DNA of 35,356 bases, taken from assembly GCA_948433085.1 (NCBI GenBank), contig CAOJDP010000009.1:1-35356 (forward strand). The letters are read 5' to 3'. Below the pieces are notes generated by a model. The model did not search any database. It saw only the letters and a list, made by a program, of their open reading frames with translations, and was not told where the DNA came from. This document shows, one piece after another, positions 4,319 to 30,451 of this stretch (positions are counted from its first letter, which is position 1; every line of letters begins with the position of its first letter). This DNA is from an uncultured Caryophanales bacterium (GTDB lineage: Bacteria; Bacillota_I; Bacilli_A; RF39; UBA660). A program made the translations under genes and the position numbers.

Positions 4319-4714
4319 ATGGAAGAAGAAAACAATATGATGCGTGAAAAATTAAGTGGACAAGCACTTATAGAAAAAAATAAAAAAATAAAAAAAGAAA
4401 CGCAAAGACTAAAGAAATTATTTAGAGATTTACCAGAAAACAAGCATAAAATGGCAGAAAAATTAATAGAAAATGCTTCTTTTATGTCTATAACCTTAGA
4501 TGAATTAAAAGAAGATATAAAATTGTATGGTGTAAAAGAAACATATGTAAACGGCAAAGATCAATATGGTTTCAAAGAGTCGATAGAAAGCAAAACATAC
4601 AACACAATGGTAAAAAACTATATGAGCATTATAAAGCAATTGAACGATATGTTACCAGAGCAGAAGAAAATAGATGAGGATGATGAATTTGAACAATTCA
4701 ATGGTTTAACATGA
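4319..4714 (+). CDS. terS: Terminase small subunit (P27-type)
   Basis: A 131-residue protein behind AAAGGAGGTGCAGAG. It resembles the P27 family of small terminase subunits, which recognise phage DNA for packaging: MAEKLIENASFMSITLDELK, then VNGKDQYGFKESIESKTYNT and MVKNYMSIIKQLNDMLP. The stop overlaps the large subunit start (ATGA at 4711), so the subunits are coupled. Confidence 0.85.
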   Translation: MEEENNMMREKLSGQALIEKNKKIKKETQRLKKLFRDLPENKHKMAEKLIENASFMSITLDELKEDIKLYGVKETYVNGKDQYGFKESIESKTYNTMVKNYMSIIKQLNDMLPEQKKIDEDDEFEQFNGLT

Positions 4715-6415
4715 CATATATAGAAGAATACTATGAATTTTTACTTAAAAATCCAGATAAAGCTCCACATAAGGTTTTAATGACATATAAGAAACTTGTA
4801 CAAGATATTTATAATCCAAAACAAGTTTCTTTTTTTAATGAAATAACAGAAAAAAATGAAACACATACATATATATTCAATTTACAAAAAGCTAATAGAC
4901 CGATTGAATTTATAGAAAAATTTTGCAAGCACTCTAAAGGAAAATGGGCTGGAAAGCCTGTTATATTAGAACTTTGGCAAAAAGCATCTGTACAAGCGTT
5001 GTTTGGTTTTGTAGACAAAGAAACCGATTTAAGAAAATACAAAAAAGGAATTTTATTTGTAGCAAGAAAAAACGGAAAATCTACAATAGATGCAGGATTA
5101 GGAAATTATATGCTTACATCAGCTGGCGAAGGTGGTGCAGAAATTTATTCTGTTGCTACCAAGAAAGAACAAGCTAAAGTAGTTTGGGAAGAAGCTAAAA
5201 GAATGATTAAAAAAAGCCCAGTTCTAGCGAAAAGAATAAGAACATTAGTAAATGGGTTATTTTTTGATAAAGCAGAAAGCTTTTTTAAGGCTCTTGCAAG
5301 CGACTCTAATTCACTCGATGGTTTAAATGCCTTTTTTGTAATATGCGACGAAATTCAAGCGTGGAAAGATAAAAATTTATTAGATGTAATGTACGACTCT
5401 ATGTCTGCAAGAGAAGAACCACTTCTTTTAGAAACTTCTACAATGGGGACAGTAAGAGAAAGTGTATTTGACAACGAATATGAATATGCTTCGGCTATTA
5501 TAGATGGATATGAAGGAAAACAAGATGGAATAGTAGATGAAACAGTTTTGCCAATTATTTATGAATTAGATAATACAAATGAATGGCAAGACGAAAAGAA
5601 ATGGTATAAAGCAAATCCACGGACTTGGAACCATAAAAAATATAAAAGATTTACGAGATAAAGTTAACAGAGCAAAAAATAATCCAACAGAATTAACAAA
5701 TCTACTATGTAAAGATTTTAACATAAGACAAAATGACCAAGATAAATGGATTACATTTGATATCGCAAATAATGAAGCATTATACAATATAGAAGATTTA
5801 TTCGACACATATGCAATTGGTGGAGTTGATTTATCTAGTACAACAGATTTAACTTGTGCAACTTTATTAATTATAAAACATGGTAAAAAGTATGTAATAC
5901 AACAATATTTCATAGCAAGTGAAAGACTAGAATTTAAAATAAAAGATGATAAAATACCATACGACAAATGGGAAAAACGTGGATTAGTAACAATTTGTGA
6001 AGGTGCAAAAGTAAATTATAGCGATGTAACGCAATGGTTTATAAAGATGCATAATGAATATGATATAAATGCGTTATGGATAGGATATGACCCTTGGAAC
6101 ACTCAATACTGGGTTGAAGAAATGAAGGAGCAAGGTTTTGAAATGATAGAGATAAGACAAGGAGCTAAAACAATGAGTAATCCAATGAAACAATTAGAGG
6201 CTGATTTAATAGAAAAAAATGTTAATTATAACAATAATCCAATTTTAAAATGGTGCTTATGTAATACTTCAGTAAAAAGAGATGATAATGACAATATAAG
6301 ACCAGTAAAAGGACAAAAACAAAGAGCAAGAATAGATGGTACAGTAAGTTTAATAATAGCTTATTGCGTTTTATTTGAAAAAATGAATGACTATTTAGTG
6401 TTACAAGGAGAGTGA
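4711..6415 (+). CDS. terL: Terminase large subunit, needs +1 shift at CGG 5620
   Basis: The packaging motor. Before the shift, 303 codons hold the ATPase: Walker A ARKNGKST (residues 118-125), Walker B FFVICDE (D213, E214) and the coupling motif LETSTMG. CGG at 5620-5622 is in frame after ANP; read normally, translation ends within 14 codons and the nuclease is lost. Skipping the C gives GGA and restores ANPGLGTIK, a motif this terminase family conserves, then the nuclease domain with GGVDLSSTTDL, WIGYDPWNT and ARIDGTVSLIIAY. The joined product is 567 residues, normal for the family. An essential gene that can work only with the shift is strong evidence that the shift occurs in vivo. Confidence 0.92.
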
Positions 6416-12158: not shown

Positions 12159-15100
12159 ATGGCTGGAAGTATAAAAGGAATAATAGTTGAAATTGGAGGA
12201 GACACATCAGGACTACAAAAAGCATTAAGCAAGGTTAATTCTCAAAGTTCTAGTTTAAGCAAGGAATTAAAAGGGATTAACTCTTTACTTAAGCTAGATC
12301 CAAAAAATGTTGAATTATTAGAACAGAAACAAACAGTTCTAAATGAAAGTATACAAACTACGCAACAGAAATTAAATCAGTTAAAAGCAGTTAAAGAAGA
12401 AGCCGACAAAAAAATGGCAAATGGAACTAAAATTTCAGAAGAAAATTATAGAAACTTACAAAGAGAAATAATAAACACAGAAAGAAAACTAAATAATTTA
12501 ACAAACGATTTAAAGCAATTCATGGTGGAAAATTCAAATTGGACAAAAGCTGGAAAAAAGATAGAAGAATATGGCGATAAAATAACAAAAGCAAGTAAAA
12601 AAATAGATGAAATCGGAGATAAAGCGTCTATTATATCTGGTAGTGTTGTAGCAAGTGGAACATTATTAACCAATAGTGCTATGAATTTAGAAGATGCAGT
12701 TTCAAAGTATATAAATACAACTAGCACTGCTAAAGAAGAAACAGAGCAATATAAAGAAGTTTTAGAAAATATACATAGAAATAATTATGGAGAAGATTAC
12801 GAAGATATTGCAAATTCTATGTCTAACGTAAAAATGCAATTAAAAGATTTAAACGGACAAGACTTGCAAAACGTAACAGAAAAAGCTATTGCTTTTAGAG
12901 ATTTATTCGGTTATGAAGTATCAGAAAGTATACGAGCAGTAAAAGCAATGATGGACAACTTCAATATCAGTGCAGATGAGGCATTTAATTTGCTAGCAGA
13001 AGGTAAAAAGCAAGGATTAGATTTTTCAAATGAACTACTAGATAATGTAAATGAATATTCAGTGCAATTTAAAAAGCTAGGTTTTACCGCTGATGATATG
13101 TTTAATATTTTTAAAAGTGGAGCTGAAAATGGTGCTTTTAATTTAGATAAAATAGGTGATGCCGTAAAAGAATTTTCAATTAGAGCAATAGACGGTTCAA
13201 ATACTACAATTGAAGGCTTTAAAAAACTAGGATTAAATGCTAATACAATGGCTAAGAAATTTGCACAAGGTGGAGATGTAGCAAAAGAAGCATTTATTCA
13301 AGTAGTTGAAAAAATCGGAAAAATGGACAATAAAGTAGAACAAAGCATAGTTGGAGTTGATTTGTTCGGAACAATGTGGGAAGACTTGGGACCTACAGTT
13401 GTTACAAGCTTTAGTAAAATGGATAATGGAATATCTAAGAGTAGCAATTCAATGCAAGAATCAATTGATGGACTATATAACACAACAAAGAAAAAAGCAG
13501 AAGCACAATTGAGAAGATTACAAAGTTTAGGTGCAGATTTTGGAAAAGAAATGTTACCAACTCTAGAAAAGATTATAGATAAAGCAGAAGATTTCATTAA
13601 AAGCTTAGAAGGAATGAGCGATGCTGAAAAAGAAAATATATTAAAAATAGGACTATTTGTCGCAGGTATGGGACCAGCCACAAAGGTATTAGGAACAGCA
13701 GGTAAGGTAATAGGAACTACGACAAAAGGAATATCAACATTTTCGCAAGCAGTAGGACTTATGGGAAAAACAAGTACAGACGCTTTTAACAATGCTTCAA
13801 AAGGAACGCAGATTTTGGCAAAAGGTTTAACTGGTTTGGCAAGTCCAGCTGGAATAGCAACATTAGCAATCACAGCAGCTGCAACAGCAATTACTATTGC
13901 AATTCAAAATTCGGGAAAAGAAACTAAAGAAGCATTTTCTAATATGGGAGAAGGTGCCACGGATTTTATAAGAGGAATTGATAGTGCAACGTCTCATTTG
14001 GATAGTTTTAATAGCACATTATTTGCAAGTTCGGAGGAACAACAAAAATTACAAGAAGATATGAATAGTGTACAAGAAGGAATAACAAGTATTTGTAAAA
14101 GAGCATCTGATGAAAGAAGAAATTATACACAAGAAGAGATTACACAACTAGATGAATATTTTAATAAATTAAGAGAACTTAAAAACAGAGAACTAGAAAT
14201 CCAAAAAAGTATATCTAGTTCTATTGCTCAACAAGCACAACAGGAAGCTCAAACATTTCAAGGGAGTTTAGAACAATATAAAATAAAATCACAAGAATGG
14301 ATAAAAACAGCACAAGAACAAGCAGATAAGCAAATATCAATAATTAATGATAGAGCAACGCAAGAAATTGCATTGTTACAGCAGAAGTATGGAGAAAGAG
14401 CAACATTAGATAACGAAGAATATGCTAGACAGTATAATGAAATAGTAAATAATAAAACTAAAGCTATAAATGAAGCGAATGACCAAGTCGCACAAGTTAA
14501 CATGGTTTATGCTAATGGCTATTTGGAAAGAGCAAATCAAAATGAAGGTTTCTTAACAACAATGAGTGAATATAATGCAAGAGCAGAAACAGAAAATAAT
14601 AGACACAATCAAAAAATGCAAGATATTGAAGATGGTAATTTTAATAAAATTCTAGGAAGAACAAAAGAAAGACAGTCAGAGGCAGTAAAACATAATGACA
14701 AAATGAAGGATATATGGAATGATATGTATAAAAATATGTCAGAAGAACAAGAGAAAGAAATGGGAACTTGGTTGACAATGGTAGCACAAACGGAAATGTA
14801 TGGAGGAGAAGTCTCAGATGAAACTCAAAAAATAGTAGATGCAATACTTGATAGTTATGATAGTATGCCAGAAGAAACTAGAAAAACTATGAAAAATGCA
14901 ATGCAACCTTTACTAGAAGAAATGCAAAACAAAGAACCAGATTTATATGCAAAAGCAAGTGGAATTGCTAAAGGAATATTAAGAAGACTAAACGAATCCT
15001 TCGATATACATTCTCCTTCAAGAGAAACAAGAAAAATATTCAAATATGTTATGGAAGGGGCAGAATTAGGATTACAAGATGAAGAAAACAATATTTATAA

Positions 15101-15350
15101 GCAAATAGATAAATTTACAGACAATACATTAAGTAGATTAAACAAGATTAAAATTCAAGACTTACAGTTAAAAACATCAAAAATACAAGATTTCGGAAAA
15201 ATTCAAGGAAATTTAAGAAAAGAAATAGCAAATAATACAAAAACAATATTTACTACTCCACAAATAGTATTTAATGTACAAGAATTAGACGAAGCAAAAC
15301 TACAACAATGTTTTAATTATATTAATAGGAAATTTGGAAGTGCTTATTAA
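12159..15350 (+). CDS. Tail tape measure protein
   Basis: At 1063 residues this is the longest product in the window. The N terminus is coiled coil (SKELKGINSLLKLDP), followed by the TP901-type core, a hydrophobic segment at about residues 560-582 (ASPAGIATLAITAAATAI), then long coiled coils (residues 640-900) and a C terminus with INRKFGSAY. It sets tail length and enters the host membrane during DNA injection. Residues 594-617, just after the hydrophobic segment, recur in the membrane protein encoded next (16 of 24 identical). Confidence 0.92.
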   Translation: MAGSIKGIIVEIGGDTSGLQKALSKVNSQSSSLSKELKGINSLLKLDPKNVELLEQKQTVLNESIQTTQQKLNQLKAVKEEADKKMANGTKISEENYRNLQREIINTERKLNNLTNDLKQFMVENSNWTKAGKKIEEYGDKITKASKKIDEIGDKASIISGSVVASGTLLTNSAMNLEDAVSKYINTTSTAKEETEQYKEVLENIHRNNYGEDYEDIANSMSNVKMQLKDLNGQDLQNVTEKAIAFRDLFGYEVSESIRAVKAMMDNFNISADEAFNLLAEGKKQGLDFSNELLDNVNEYSVQFKKLGFTADDMFNIFKSGAENGAFNLDKIGDAVKEFSIRAIDGSNTTIEGFKKLGLNANTMAKKFAQGGDVAKEAFIQVVEKIGKMDNKVEQSIVGVDLFGTMWEDLGPTVVTSFSKMDNGISKSSNSMQESIDGLYNTTKKKAEAQLRRLQSLGADFGKEMLPTLEKIIDKAEDFIKSLEGMSDAEKENILKIGLFVAGMGPATKVLGTAGKVIGTTTKGISTFSQAVGLMGKTSTDAFNNASKGTQILAKGLTGLASPAGIATLAITAAATAITIAIQNSGKETKEAFSNMGEGATDFIRGIDSATSHLDSFNSTLFASSEEQQKLQEDMNSVQEGITSICKRASDERRNYTQEEITQLDEYFNKLRELKNRELEIQKSISSSIAQQAQQEAQTFQGSLEQYKIKSQEWIKTAQEQADKQISIINDRATQEIALLQQKYGERATLDNEEYARQYNEIVNNKTKAINEANDQVAQVNMVYANGYLERANQNEGFLTTMSEYNARAETENNRHNQKMQDIEDGNFNKILGRTKERQSEAVKHNDKMKDIWNDMYKNMSEEQEKEMGTWLTMVAQTEMYGGEVSDETQKIVDAILDSYDSMPEETRKTMKNAMQPLLEEMQNKEPDLYAKASGIAKGILRRLNESFDIHSPSRETRKIFKYVMEGAELGLQDEENNIYKQIDKFTDNTLSRLNKIKIQDLQLKTSKIQDFGKIQGNLRKEIANNTKTIFTTPQIVFNVQELDEAKLQQCFNYINRKFGSAY

Positions 15351-15371
15351 AAAAAGAATTAATAGCAAAAT

Positions 15372-15399
15372 TCGACAAATTTTCACCTTTTTATATGAT
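15372..15399 (+). promoter_or_regulatory. Promoter of the moron gene
   Basis: TCGACA (15372-15377), 16 bases, then TATGAT (15394-15399), each one base from consensus. It lies between the tape measure stop and the next gene, so that gene can be expressed from the prophage. Confidence 0.5.
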
Positions 15400-15425
15400 A
15401 TATAAATAATAAAGGAGGAAATTTG

Positions 15426-15875
15426 ATGAAAAATATAATAAAAAAATGGTGGTTTTGGGTAATATTTATTATAATATGTATATTATGTTATGTATTTACT
15501 TTACATTATTTAGATAATAAAAAAATAAAGAAATCTGTAAGTAATATAGGGAATGGTGCTTCGGACTTTATAGAAGGCGTTGATAATGCACAATCTCATC
15601 TTGATGAGTTTTCTTATAATTATGATACAGGAGAAGTTGAATATAAACCTTCAAAAATCACTTTAGAGATGTACAATAGAATAGAAGAAGGAATGAGTCA
15701 AGATGAAGTAGTTTCAATATTAGGAAAATATGAAGATATGCTAAATGGAGAAAATACATATATTTTAGAATGGGGAAACGAATATTCTCCAGTACACAAT
15801 GGATATTGGATACAAATTACTTTTAATGTCAATGAAAAAAACGTTTTAAAGAAATATCAAATTGGCTTAGAATAA
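15426..15875 (+). CDS. Membrane-anchored moron with tape-measure mimic segment; likely superinfection exclusion
   Basis: A 149-residue protein from ATG 15426, chosen over TTG 15423 because AGGAGG is seven bases away. Residues 8-29 form one membrane helix after a short Lys-rich start. Residues 39-62 repeat tape measure residues 594-617: SNIGNGASDFIEGVD and SHLDEF here against SNMGEGATDFIRGID and SHLDSF there. The C-terminal half (GMSQDEVVSILG, EWGN, ITFNV) resembles SmpA/OmlA-like small domains. It has its own promoter and terminator inside the tail operon, the layout of a lysogenic cargo gene. By analogy with the Ltp lipoprotein of phage TP-J34, which acts on the tape measure, I infer blocking of DNA entry by related phages. 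Confidence 0.7.
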   Translation: MKNIIKKWWFWVIFIIICILCYVFTLHYLDNKKIKKSVSNIGNGASDFIEGVDNAQSHLDEFSYNYDTGEVEYKPSKITLEMYNRIEEGMSQDEVVSILGKYEDMLNGENTYILEWGNEYSPVHNGYWIQITFNVNEKNVLKKYQIGLE

Positions 15876-15883
15876 TAATACAA

Positions 15884-15916
15884 AAATAAACACTCAGTTA
15901 AGAGTGTTTATTTTTT
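15884..15916 (+). terminator. Strong terminator after the moron
   Basis: AAATAAACACTC (15884-15895) pairs perfectly with GAGTGTTTATTT (15902-15913) across a six-base loop, ending in a T run. It insulates the moron from the tail genes that follow. Confidence 0.85.
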
Positions 15917-15937: not shown

Positions 15938-16792
15938 GTGGTAAGAGAATTTTATCTACTAAATGAAAAAGGTCAACAATATTCTTTTATGGATATAAAG
16001 AATTACTGTTTATTAACAGAACCAAGCGGATTAGGATATTCTTATACTAGAGAATATGAACAACTAGGAAATACTTTTATAAAAACATTTGGAAGAATAG
16101 AACAAAAGCAGATTGAAGGAGCAGTTAACTTTCTAAACTATGATAATTTTAAAAATCTTGTAGACTTTATAGAGAAAGCAGAAAGTTTGAGAATTTTATA
16201 TAAAGTACCATCTAAAAATGGCTTAAAAGAGTATTTCAGAGATGTGAATATAAAAAGCTTATCAAAAACACAAATACAACAAAATGGAATATTAAGTGAA
16301 ACTATAGTATTTGATTGTTTAAGCTTATGGTATGAAGAAAACAAAGTAATTTACACGACAAAAGGGGAAGATGACGAAATAATTTGGGACTTTAAATGGG
16401 ATAGCAAATTTTCGGATTATAGTACAAGAAGCTTAGAATATGTTAATAAAGGACATGTAGAAGCACCCATTGAAATAGTTGCAAATGGTCCGATTGTAAA
16501 TCTAAAAATATTATTACTTGTAGAGGGCGAATTAGTACAAGAAGTTCTGATTAAAACAACAATACAAAAATATGAAAAAATATTATATGGAACAAGAGAG
16601 AATGATTTTTATATAAATAAAGAAAACACAGATGGGACTTTAACAAGTCTTTTTTCTTTGGATTATATTGATTTTGAAAACGACAATGTAATTAGAATAC
16701 CGAAAAATCGATCATGCAAACTAAAATTAACAGCAGAAAACGAAATCTTATTAGCAGAAATAATGATATTACCGCAGTACATAACAGTATAG
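15938..16792 (+). CDS. Distal tail protein (Dit)
   Basis: A 284-residue protein starting at GTG 15938 behind AAAAAGGAGGGAAATAT; the ATG two bases earlier is in another frame and stops at once. It has the siphovirus distal-tail pattern: an FYLLNEKGQQYSF start, GLGYSYTREYEQLGNTFI, VKI-like strands in the middle and a galectin-like second half (DFYINKENTDGTLTSLFSLD). Dit forms the hexameric hub joining tube and baseplate. Confidence 0.82.
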   Translation: MVREFYLLNEKGQQYSFMDIKNYCLLTEPSGLGYSYTREYEQLGNTFIKTFGRIEQKQIEGAVNFLNYDNFKNLVDFIEKAESLRILYKVPSKNGLKEYFRDVNIKSLSKTQIQQNGILSETIVFDCLSLWYEENKVIYTTKGEDDEIIWDFKWDSKFSDYSTRSLEYVNKGHVEAPIEIVANGPIVNLKILLLVEGELVQEVLIKTTIQKYEKILYGTRENDFYINKENTDGTLTSLFSLDYIDFENDNVIRIPKNRSCKLKLTAENEILLAEIMILPQYITV

Positions 16793-28145: not shown

Positions 28146-29609
28146 TTAAGAAGTTTTTTCTTTTAATAATTGATATTTGTTTTTTATTTTATCTAAAGCT
28201 TTGTATAATATTTTTTTATCTAAGTCATCTAAAGAGGAAGTATCAAGAGTATTATTGATTTTTTCTATTTCAATTAAAATATTATCTTGTTTGCTTAAAT
28301 CTACATAGTTTAATTTTTGTTCTTTCATATAATCTTCACTAATTTTATTGTATTTGTTTTTATATTCTGAAAATGCGTCAAAATAGGTATTAAGTGTTAC
28401 TTCAATGTCTTTATGTCCTAAAAGGTCTTTTAAAACTTCAACAGGCATACCAGATTCTATTTTTCTTGTAGCATAAGAATGTCTCAAAACATATTGTGTT
28501 TCTTCAAATTCTTTTCCTATATTGTATTTTTTACAAAATCTCTTAAAAGAACTATTAGAAGCGGATACTGATGTAAAATCATCTCTTTTTTTATCCCAAA
28601 ATAACAAATTATATTTATTATAAATATTTTCGTTTAATGCTTCTTTTAATATAGCTTCTGAATCCCTACTTATATTGATATATCTATCACCAGAATATGT
28701 TTTTGTTTTATCTCCAAGTACAGTATTTCCGTTTTTATCTTTAGTAAGAGAAATTCTTATATGAATTTTTTTATTTTTAAAATCTATGTCGTTAATATCT
28801 AGTGCATAACATTCACCTGGTCTAATGCCTGTGCTTAACATTAATAGCCATGCATATTTATATTTATTTTCTTTGTTTTTTATAATATCAATAAACTTCT
28901 TTTGCTCAGACAACATAAAAGCACGTACTTTTTCAGTTTTTCGCTTTGAGTTAGGTTTGCTAAATTCATCTTTGTCATCTAGCGGATTTAACGGTAATAT
29001 GTTTTTACGAACAGCTCTAATAAAAGTTGCATTTAGCAATCCAAAATCTTTTCCAATTACAGAATCAGAATAAACAGTCATATAGTTAAGATATTTATGT
29101 ATGTCTTCATCAGTTACTTTTTGAGCAGGTTTATGCATAAAAGAATGTTGATTTAATCTGTTTAATTTAGACAAATTAGCAATATAAGAATTATCGGTAG
29201 TTTTGTTTTTGTTATGTCTGTCTTCTACAATATTTTTTGCTATTTCATATAAAGTAATAGTGGATTTATCAACTAATTTATTATCATTGATTTTATTAAT
29301 AGTATCAAGATTATTTTTAGCAGCATCTTTCTTTTTCTTTGCATACTGGGGAGAAGTTCTAGTTCCATCTTTTTTTGTTGCTTGACTAACACTTCTTTCA
29401 TATATATAATATCTATCGCAATACTTTAAACATTCTATACAATTTTTACATTTATCACATAAGTTTTTGCAATCTTCTCTATTGTGACATAGTTCTTGAT
29501 TATTGCAATTCTTACATATCTCACATATTTCTAAATTTGTGTTTTTCTTTTTTACTTTTTGTATAAATTCATATACACTTCCTTCGCCGTTTGCACGTCT
29601 TCCTTTCAT
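28146..29609 (-). CDS. int: Tyrosine integrase with Cys-rich N-terminal insertion
   Basis: A 487-residue phage integrase on the minus strand, behind AGGAGG. The start KGRRANGEGSVY is the arm-binding domain, interrupted by ten cysteines at residues 29-64 (CEIC, CKNC, CDKCKNCIEC and others), which suggests zinc binding. The core domain spans about 120-215. Catalytic residues: R263 (STGIRPGECYAL), K290, R376 (YVLRHSYATR), H399 (LLGHKD) and the nucleophile Y409 (NTYF). The usual His of H-x-x-R is Tyr here (Y373), one base change from His. It contains no in-frame CGG. Confidence 0.93.
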   Translation of the reverse strand: MKGRRANGEGSVYEFIQKVKKKNTNLEICEICKNCNNQELCHNREDCKNLCDKCKNCIECLKYCDRYYIYERSVSQATKKDGTRTSPQYAKKKKDAAKNNLDTINKINDNKLVDKSTITLYEIAKNIVEDRHNKNKTTDNSYIANLSKLNRLNQHSFMHKPAQKVTDEDIHKYLNYMTVYSDSVIGKDFGLLNATFIRAVRKNILPLNPLDDKDEFSKPNSKRKTEKVRAFMLSEQKKFIDIIKNKENKYKYAWLLMLSTGIRPGECYALDINDIDFKNKKIHIRISLTKDKNGNTVLGDKTKTYSGDRYINISRDSEAILKEALNENIYNKYNLLFWDKKRDDFTSVSASNSSFKRFCKKYNIGKEFEETQYVLRHSYATRKIESGMPVEVLKDLLGHKDIEVTLNTYFDAFSEYKNKYNKISEDYMKEQKLNYVDLSKQDNILIEIEKINNTLDTSSLDDLDKKILYKALDKIKNKYQLLKEKTS

Positions 29610-29763: not shown

Positions 29764-30451
29764 TTATTTCTTTCTAAAATTTCTAATTGATTTTTCTACT
29801 ACGCCAATTATCTTAACTGGTAATTTTTTAATTTCTTCTTCTGTAAATATTCTAGGTGGGTAGTAAGGATTAACAGCCTTTAATTCAAGTCCAGTAGTTC
29901 CTTTGTAAACTTTTTTAATAGTAGCTTCATCTCCATTGATAAGAACAACACAATTTTCTCCATTTCTAAAATCCTCTTGTTTGTGTATTATAACAGTATC
30001 GCCATCATCAAAAAGCGGTGTCATGCTATCACCAACTACATTTAAAGCATAGTAGTTTTCTTTGTCTGTTCCATCTACTTTAAAATGTATGTGGTCAATA
30101 ATATTTTCTTGTGCCAAGTAATCATATCCAGCTTTAACAGTTCCGAAGAATTGGAATTTTGACAGTCTCCATATCTGTTAAAGGAATAGCTCCTATTTTT
30201 TTTAATATATCCTCTGTTTGTTCTTTAATAGGAACATCATACCCCATTAACCATGCTGGATTAACATTGTATAAGTGAGCTAAAAGTTCCAATATAGGAA
30301 TTTTGAATTTTTCGGTTGCTCCATTTTCCCATCTTAAAATTGTACTTTTATGAACTCCAGCTAATTTTCCTGCTTCTTCTAAAGTTATTCCTTTTAATTC
30401 TCTAGCGAATTTTAATCTTTGACCGACTTTTTCATAAATAATTTTTTCCAT
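29764..30451 (-). CDS. CI/LexA-like repressor, needs +1 shift at CGG 30145
   Basis: Starts at ATG 30451 (minus) behind TAGGAG. Residues 1-70 hold an XRE helix-turn-helix (GITLEEAGKLAGVHKSTILR). CGG on the minus strand at 30145-30143 is in frame after KIPIL; normal reading adds RNC and stops. Skipping the C gives GGA and restores PILGTVKAGYDYL, the conserved approach to the A107-G108 cleavage site, then the S24 peptidase with S142 (VVGDSMTPLFDDGD) and K179. The joined product is 228 residues. Without the shift only the DNA-binding half would form, which could not dimerise or respond to DNA damage. Confidence 0.88.

Follow-up and report, generated by a model that had tools for sequence, protein, structure and literature searches.

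A prophage membrane protein that resembles a segment of the tape measure protein, proposed to act in superinfection exclusion

What might a prophage gain from a small membrane protein that reproduces part of its own tail tape measure protein (TMP)? The question is raised by a stretch of 35,356 nucleotides (the window, meaning the whole of the DNA analysed) from contig CAOJDP010000009.1 of an uncultured Caryophanales bacterium. The window contains a temperate phage with an integrase and a repressor, and a moron gene encoding a membrane protein of 149 residues lies between its TMP gene and the gene for the distal tail protein (Dit). We propose, with a probability of roughly 0.6, that this gene encodes a superinfection-exclusion protein that would act by mimicry of the TMP. 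The argument rests on the following features of the moron and the TMP.

15426-15875, plus strand: membrane moron gene encoding the putative TMP-mimic protein, 149 aa (open reading frame call; 11 further family members)
15447-15503, plus strand: predicted membrane anchor, the KKWWFW helix, residues 8-26 (hydropathy 2.48; AlphaFold2 (AF2) helix 8-53)
15522-15611, plus strand: TMP-like segment of the moron, residues 33-62 (similarity to the TMP)
15654-15872, plus strand: BLIP/BamE-like C-terminal domain, residues 77-149 (weak Pfam and PHROG matches; Foldseek)
12159-15350, plus strand: TMP gene, 1063 aa (PHROG tail length tape measure, E 3e-110; Pfam PhageMin_Tail)
13848-13904, plus strand: hydrophobic helix of the TMP, residues 564-582 (hydropathy)
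13920-14009, plus strand: TMP segment that appears to be mimicked, residues 588-617 (similarity to the moron)

Moron residues 39-62 and TMP residues 594-617 agree at 16 of 24 positions, a count first given in an earlier note on this DNA and confirmed here by recount. The match is not due to chance: when the complete own genome was searched blindly with the moron as query, the first match after the moron itself was the own TMP at E 3.9e-8; the TMP of contig C12 was matched at E 0.0034, and direct comparison of moron and TMP gave E 3e-10. The segment occupies a like position in both proteins, as had been noticed before, although it begins 12-13 residues past the predicted helix (residues 8-26 of the moron and 564-582 of the TMP) and not the 10-12 first reported. 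Approximately 30-60 of the 149 residues of the moron align to the TMP, and the moron is not a long coiled tail protein of the TMP kind. Contig C12 of the same genome (G000; L149:5274-8468) represents a second prophage, whose TMP contains the same segment and which has no TMP-mimic moron nearby.

The resemblance is specific to tape measures in the genomes searched. A profile built from 46-residue moron segments only was run at E 1e-4 on 385 genomes from the order and on 240 genomes related to another carrier, and across these ~625 genomes it matched only the known morons and frames of 540-1080 aa, which we take as TMPs, always at the segment. This rules out that the motif is common in unrelated membrane proteins, the finding that the earlier note had named as fatal to its proposal. 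Conversely, a profile built from TMPs recovers the morons in moron-carrying genomes, and a comparison of all small with all large open reading frames within ~60 contigs revealed self-similarity only in these moron/TMP pairs. A profile of the full moron, run on 386 genomes of the family, identified no new full-length member, its weak matches being anchors, unrelated membrane proteins and TMPs.

Viral contigs, and genomes sampled at one per species, were searched and yielded 11 further members of the moron family (L001, L002, L028, L043, L044, L056, L066, L067, L068, L069 and L122). All share a common plan of a helix, mostly with the K-WWFW motif, followed by the TMP-like segment and then a conserved stretch resembling FSYNYxTGxVEY, and nine of the 11 have a BLIP/BamE-like C-domain, with weak sequence and fold similarity. 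L068, of 77 aa, stops after the segment and is a natural anchor-plus-segment form, and L069, of 116 aa, lacks the C-domain and has a Cys-rich N-terminus resembling a zinc ribbon. The L002 frame (L002:2296-2743) is broken at an A run in the linker between segment and C-domain, which could be error, decay or slippage. In the sister proteins L065, L073 and L074 low-complexity linkers stand where the segment would be. Where a host could be named it is one of the uncultured Clostridia, and several of these hosts come from gut samples. Overall, the sequence finding is real and much broader than first described.

Co-variation of moron and TMP at this motif, suggested earlier as a check, was found as a trend in the ten morons whose TMP was in hand. 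With 30-residue segments aligned without gaps and BLOSUM scores summed, own pairs reached 752, whereas shuffled pairs gave 620 +/- 32 (p 5e-5); after removal of one of two sister phages the values were 708 and 591 +/- 29 (p 9e-5). The own TMP ranked first among the pairs for six of the ten morons; within a pool of 42 different TMP segments its mean fractional rank was 0.20 (p 2e-4), and it was placed in the top 5 for 6/10. Examples are the pairs of L002 (TMP FETMGDAAADFYEGIQTAEGYLSDF, moron FEKMGEGASDYYKETQEAEGYLDKF) and L067 (TMP ENIGSGATDFITGIDSATSYL, moron KNIGSGALDYLTGINNAQSYL). Because the own TMP ranks high overall yet is not the closest for four of the morons, the segments appear to track the related TMPs as a pool while favouring their own lineage. 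The strongest co-varying positions are 17, 13, 26 and 10 of 30, and the i, i+3, i+7 spacing of positions 10, 13 and 17 would place them on one face if the segment is helical; with ten pairs, single positions are suggestive only.

At identical residues, 60% of the codons are the same in own pairs and 59% in unrelated pairs. Recent duplication or gene conversion is ruled out on this ground, since conversion would show in the DNA. The earlier note had also argued against a recent duplication, from the claim that most third positions differ between the two segments; the claim does not hold, as 15 of 24 agree, and the conclusion stands on codon sharing. Had an old duplication been passed on jointly, all cross-gene distances should, by reasoning, be equal on average, and the pattern differs. 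The co-variation is at the protein level only, as a trend and not one-to-one.

Ten of the 12 family genes are found at the TMP gene: seven are its immediate neighbours on one side or the other, and three lie up to ~2.5 kb upstream. An obvious terminator lies just downstream in seven of the 12, and morons beside the TMP usually have one of their own, as gp15 does beside gp16 in HK97. The window gene shares with membrane exclusion morons such as HK97 gp15 that it encodes a small membrane protein, has its own terminator and can be inserted in a tail operon. Its surroundings are as follows.

15882-15915, no strand assigned: palindromic intrinsic terminator 3' of the moron gene (-15 kcal/mol, z -6.7)
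15938-16792, plus strand: Dit, the next gene of the tail operon (Pfam Dit_N, E 5e-28)
28146-29609, minus strand: integrase of a temperate phage (Pfam Phage_integrase)
29764-30117, minus strand: repressor-type protein with an S24 peptidase domain (Pfam Peptidase_S24)

The terminator scan flagged the terminator on the minus strand; its sequence is palindromic. Elsewhere in the window, the large terminase is encoded in two overlapping frames (4711-5661 and 5579-6415), a seeming frameshift in the prophage or the assembly. The slots flanking the TMP gene form a hot spot where other membrane morons are found; several of these share the K-WWFW anchor with different outer domains (those beside the TMP include L003:2980-4069, L044:3850-6675, L056:5123-6797 and L001:5210-7051).

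A position in the lysogeny module is not that of the window gene, which lies beside the TMP gene, but is true of two relatives. In L066 the order is a CI repressor (S24 type), a gap of ~15 bp, the moron and, later, the integrase; the L069 moron (G466 contig C15) comes after a same-strand helix-turn-helix repressor and is ~21 kb from the TMP. Since ltp of Streptococcus phage TP-J34 lies between the CI repressor and the integrase, like the L066 moron, and gp15 of phage HK97 lies directly before the TMP gene, both known placements of exclusion genes occur in this one moron family.

In the tail region the DNA of contigs L122 and L043 is 86-88% identical, and the C-domains of the two morons have their final part in common. 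Relative to the L043 TMP, the part of the L122 TMP (L122:8426-11746) that holds the segment, and much of the C-terminal region that follows, is replaced by unrelated sequence. The segment profile detects no segment in this TMP, and a search of the whole 42-kb record returns only the moron, whose retained segment agrees with other phages' TMPs in 20 of 30 residues. Because the L122 moron keeps a segment that its own TMP has lost, the swap argues that the targets would be other phages, rather than for a role in the phage's own tail.

The N-terminus of the window moron, MKNIIKKWWFWVIF, is a plain helix, residues 8-26 being the single strong hydrophobic helix of the protein, and inspection of this N-terminus revealed no lipoprotein signal or lipobox cysteine. 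The C-domain resembles BLIP, DUF3862 and BamE fold domains by weak profile and fold matches. These concern one domain only, fall below the Pfam cut-offs (DUF3862 17.6 versus 25 bits, BLIP 15.8 versus 26.7, BamE 15.5 versus 23.2) and imply no link to beta-lactamase. The best Foldseek matches are BLIP-like proteins and BamE, with E 0.004-0.03 and a query TM of ~0.35 for a model of mean pLDDT 66. Among annotated phages the only relative is one weak partial match, to the C-terminal half.

TMPs are known targets of exclusion or defence proteins, among them Ltp (PMC3952083), HK97 gp15 with its TMP dependence (PMC10883804) and SNIPE (PMC13190303). Ltp, like the moron, is a small membrane-anchored protein of a temperate phage, and it reportedly acts by way of the superinfecting phage's TMP (PMC3952083). 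Unlike the moron, Ltp belongs to the lipoproteins, and binding of its repeat domains to a positively charged region at the C-terminus of a TMP has been reported (PMC3952083). Ltp has no KKWWFW-type anchor, the moron has no Pfam match to the Ltp family with its tandem helical repeats, and judged by sequence the moron is not an Ltp-family protein. HK97 gp15 is likewise a small membrane protein, encoded immediately ahead of the TMP gene and followed by a terminator of its own, but it has 62 aa, no C-domain and no significant TMP similarity. P22 SieA is an inner-membrane exclusion protein that acts on phage injection proteins (PMC10883804); its targets are short-tail ejection proteins and not a TMP, and no mimicry by SieA is reported in the available text. 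SNIPE parallels the proposed role of the moron as a membrane protein that associates with the incoming TMP (PMC13190303), but is a host nuclease with DUF4041, whereas Pfam gives no nuclease domain, and PADLOC no known defence family, for the moron. The gene for Orf2 of the lactococcal phage Tuc2009 (L120:1339-1860) lies between those for integrase and CI; the protein has a comparable Lys-rich FW anchor helix, KPIYKRIWFW, joined to a different outer domain, and shows no significant mimicry.

We suggest that the KKWWFW helix would anchor the moron in the cytoplasmic membrane, probably with the N-terminus in and the C-terminus out, a topology to which only the zinc-ribbon-like N-terminus of L069 points. 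Just past the helix, the moron would display, at the outer face, the copied segment, which in the TMP comes after the hydrophobic helix. A related phage would eject its TMP into the membrane where the displayed copy sits, and the copy may then replace the TMP segment, either by occupying a host docking partner or by co-assembling with the incoming TMP oligomer. DNA entry would presumably be blocked, the partner and expression in the lysogen being equally presumptive. Exclusion is, we believe, the best reading of what is observed here, namely the family, the similarity, its specificity to TMPs, the co-variation and the genome placements. Action on other phages is favoured because two morons lie behind a CI repressor and the L122 moron persists without the segment in its own TMP. 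To this extent the proposal of the earlier note, that the protein excludes related phages by occupying the TMP contact, gains support; occupation of the contact, on the other hand, is not separable from co-assembly with the incoming TMP.

Several points weigh against this reading. The co-variation is incomplete, as the own TMP ranks 13th-23rd of 42 for four morons, to which the TMPs of other phages are clearly closer. Neither HK97 gp15 nor TP-J34 Ltp has significant similarity to its own TMP, and mimicry is without proven precedent. The AF2 model of the segment is of low confidence, with pLDDT <50 in the moron and in the TMP region alike. Where the gene lies inside the tail operon, the moron is only presumed to be expressed in the lysogen, and the host is uncultured.

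That ten of the 12 genes are located by the TMP gene or close to it, and that the segments co-vary with the own TMP, would also suit a protein that helps its own phage as a membrane partner receiving, tethering or maturing the TMP during assembly or infection, the two segments co-varying because they work together. This seems unlikely, given that L122 retains the moron though the TMP segment is gone, that two members are in a lysogeny operon away from the tail genes, that most contigs of this TMP type (many of them fragments) show no such moron, and that terminators set the moron apart from the tail operon. Alternatively, the protein may be a decoy shielding the phage TMP from a TMP-recognising sensor of the host or a prophage, such as a SNIPE-like membrane nuclease. 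A decoy is expected to copy the bait, and SNIPE, a membrane-based defence, does associate with TMPs (PMC13190303), but a decoy would be absent when the first genome is injected, and the lysogeny-operon position fits protection of the lysogen rather than of the incoming phage, so that we give this account little weight.

It is similarly doubtful that the segment is a stalk only, a fragment of TMP captured once as a spacer between anchor and C-domain, with no recognition of TMPs. The low-complexity linkers found at the same place in L065, L073 and L074 indicate that a spacer is needed anyway. A passive relic, however, should not track its own TMP at the protein level, and L068 exists as an anchor with the segment and nothing further.

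If the moron is an exclusion protein, its control is of interest, and two elements were found upstream.

15371-15377, minus strand: consensus Spo0A box TGTCGAA (TTCGACA on the plus strand), enriched upstream of such genes
15372-15399, plus strand: possible promoter TCGACA-16-TATGAT (10 of 12 consensus positions)

The earlier note had assigned the gene its own promoter and a strong terminator. The terminator holds up; the promoter is not above chance by consensus (18 sites against 15.9 +/- 4.0 expected in a generic sigma-70 scan), though the same -35 word with a 16-bp spacer lies upstream of the L002 and L122 genes, and comparison supports an upstream control site at the window moron. TGTCGAA is the core Spo0A box (PMC3485338). 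It also lies 5' of the L002, L028, L043 and L122 morons and, more widely, upstream of phage membrane or lipoprotein morons near the TMP in L002, L003, L028, L041, L043, L055, L056 and L122. In an unbiased count of 7-mers in the 150 bp upstream of 15 K-WWFW genes, the box was the top word apart from ribosome-binding sites (5 versus 0.2 expected, p 1e-6). It is present upstream of 6/17 K-WWFW genes and 8/382 others (p 6e-6). Of the 15 intergenic boxes that have a gene close downstream, 12 stand before a gene for a membrane protein or lipoprotein. Some of the contigs counted here are related and not independent, and the motif had been noticed ahead of its test. Spo0A is encoded by the host of the window and by four moron-carrying hosts. 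The G466 prophage (contig C15), itself a moron carrier, encodes a small Spo0A_C protein (L110:4829-5167, 39 bits) that has no receiver domain, and a TGTCGAA box lies just behind this gene. We regard the association of Spo0A boxes with phage membrane morons as a strong lead, not a result; it would link phage exclusion to the developmental state of the host.

More tentatively, and with rather less expectation of being right, we envisage a class of temperate-phage exclusion proteins that display a copy of a segment of the injection protein in the membrane, kept in step with the circulating TMPs by selection and switched by Spo0A through the promoter box. No report of TMP mimicry by exclusion proteins was found in searches of open-licence papers. 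If true, this would be, to our knowledge, the first exclusion mechanism by mimicry of an injection protein, in phages of uncultured gut Clostridia. How TMPs bring DNA across the membrane, and what they contact there, is poorly known. A natural copy of one TMP segment, with co-varying positions that may lie on one helical face, would point to the contact residues and may offer a tool with which to test the contact.
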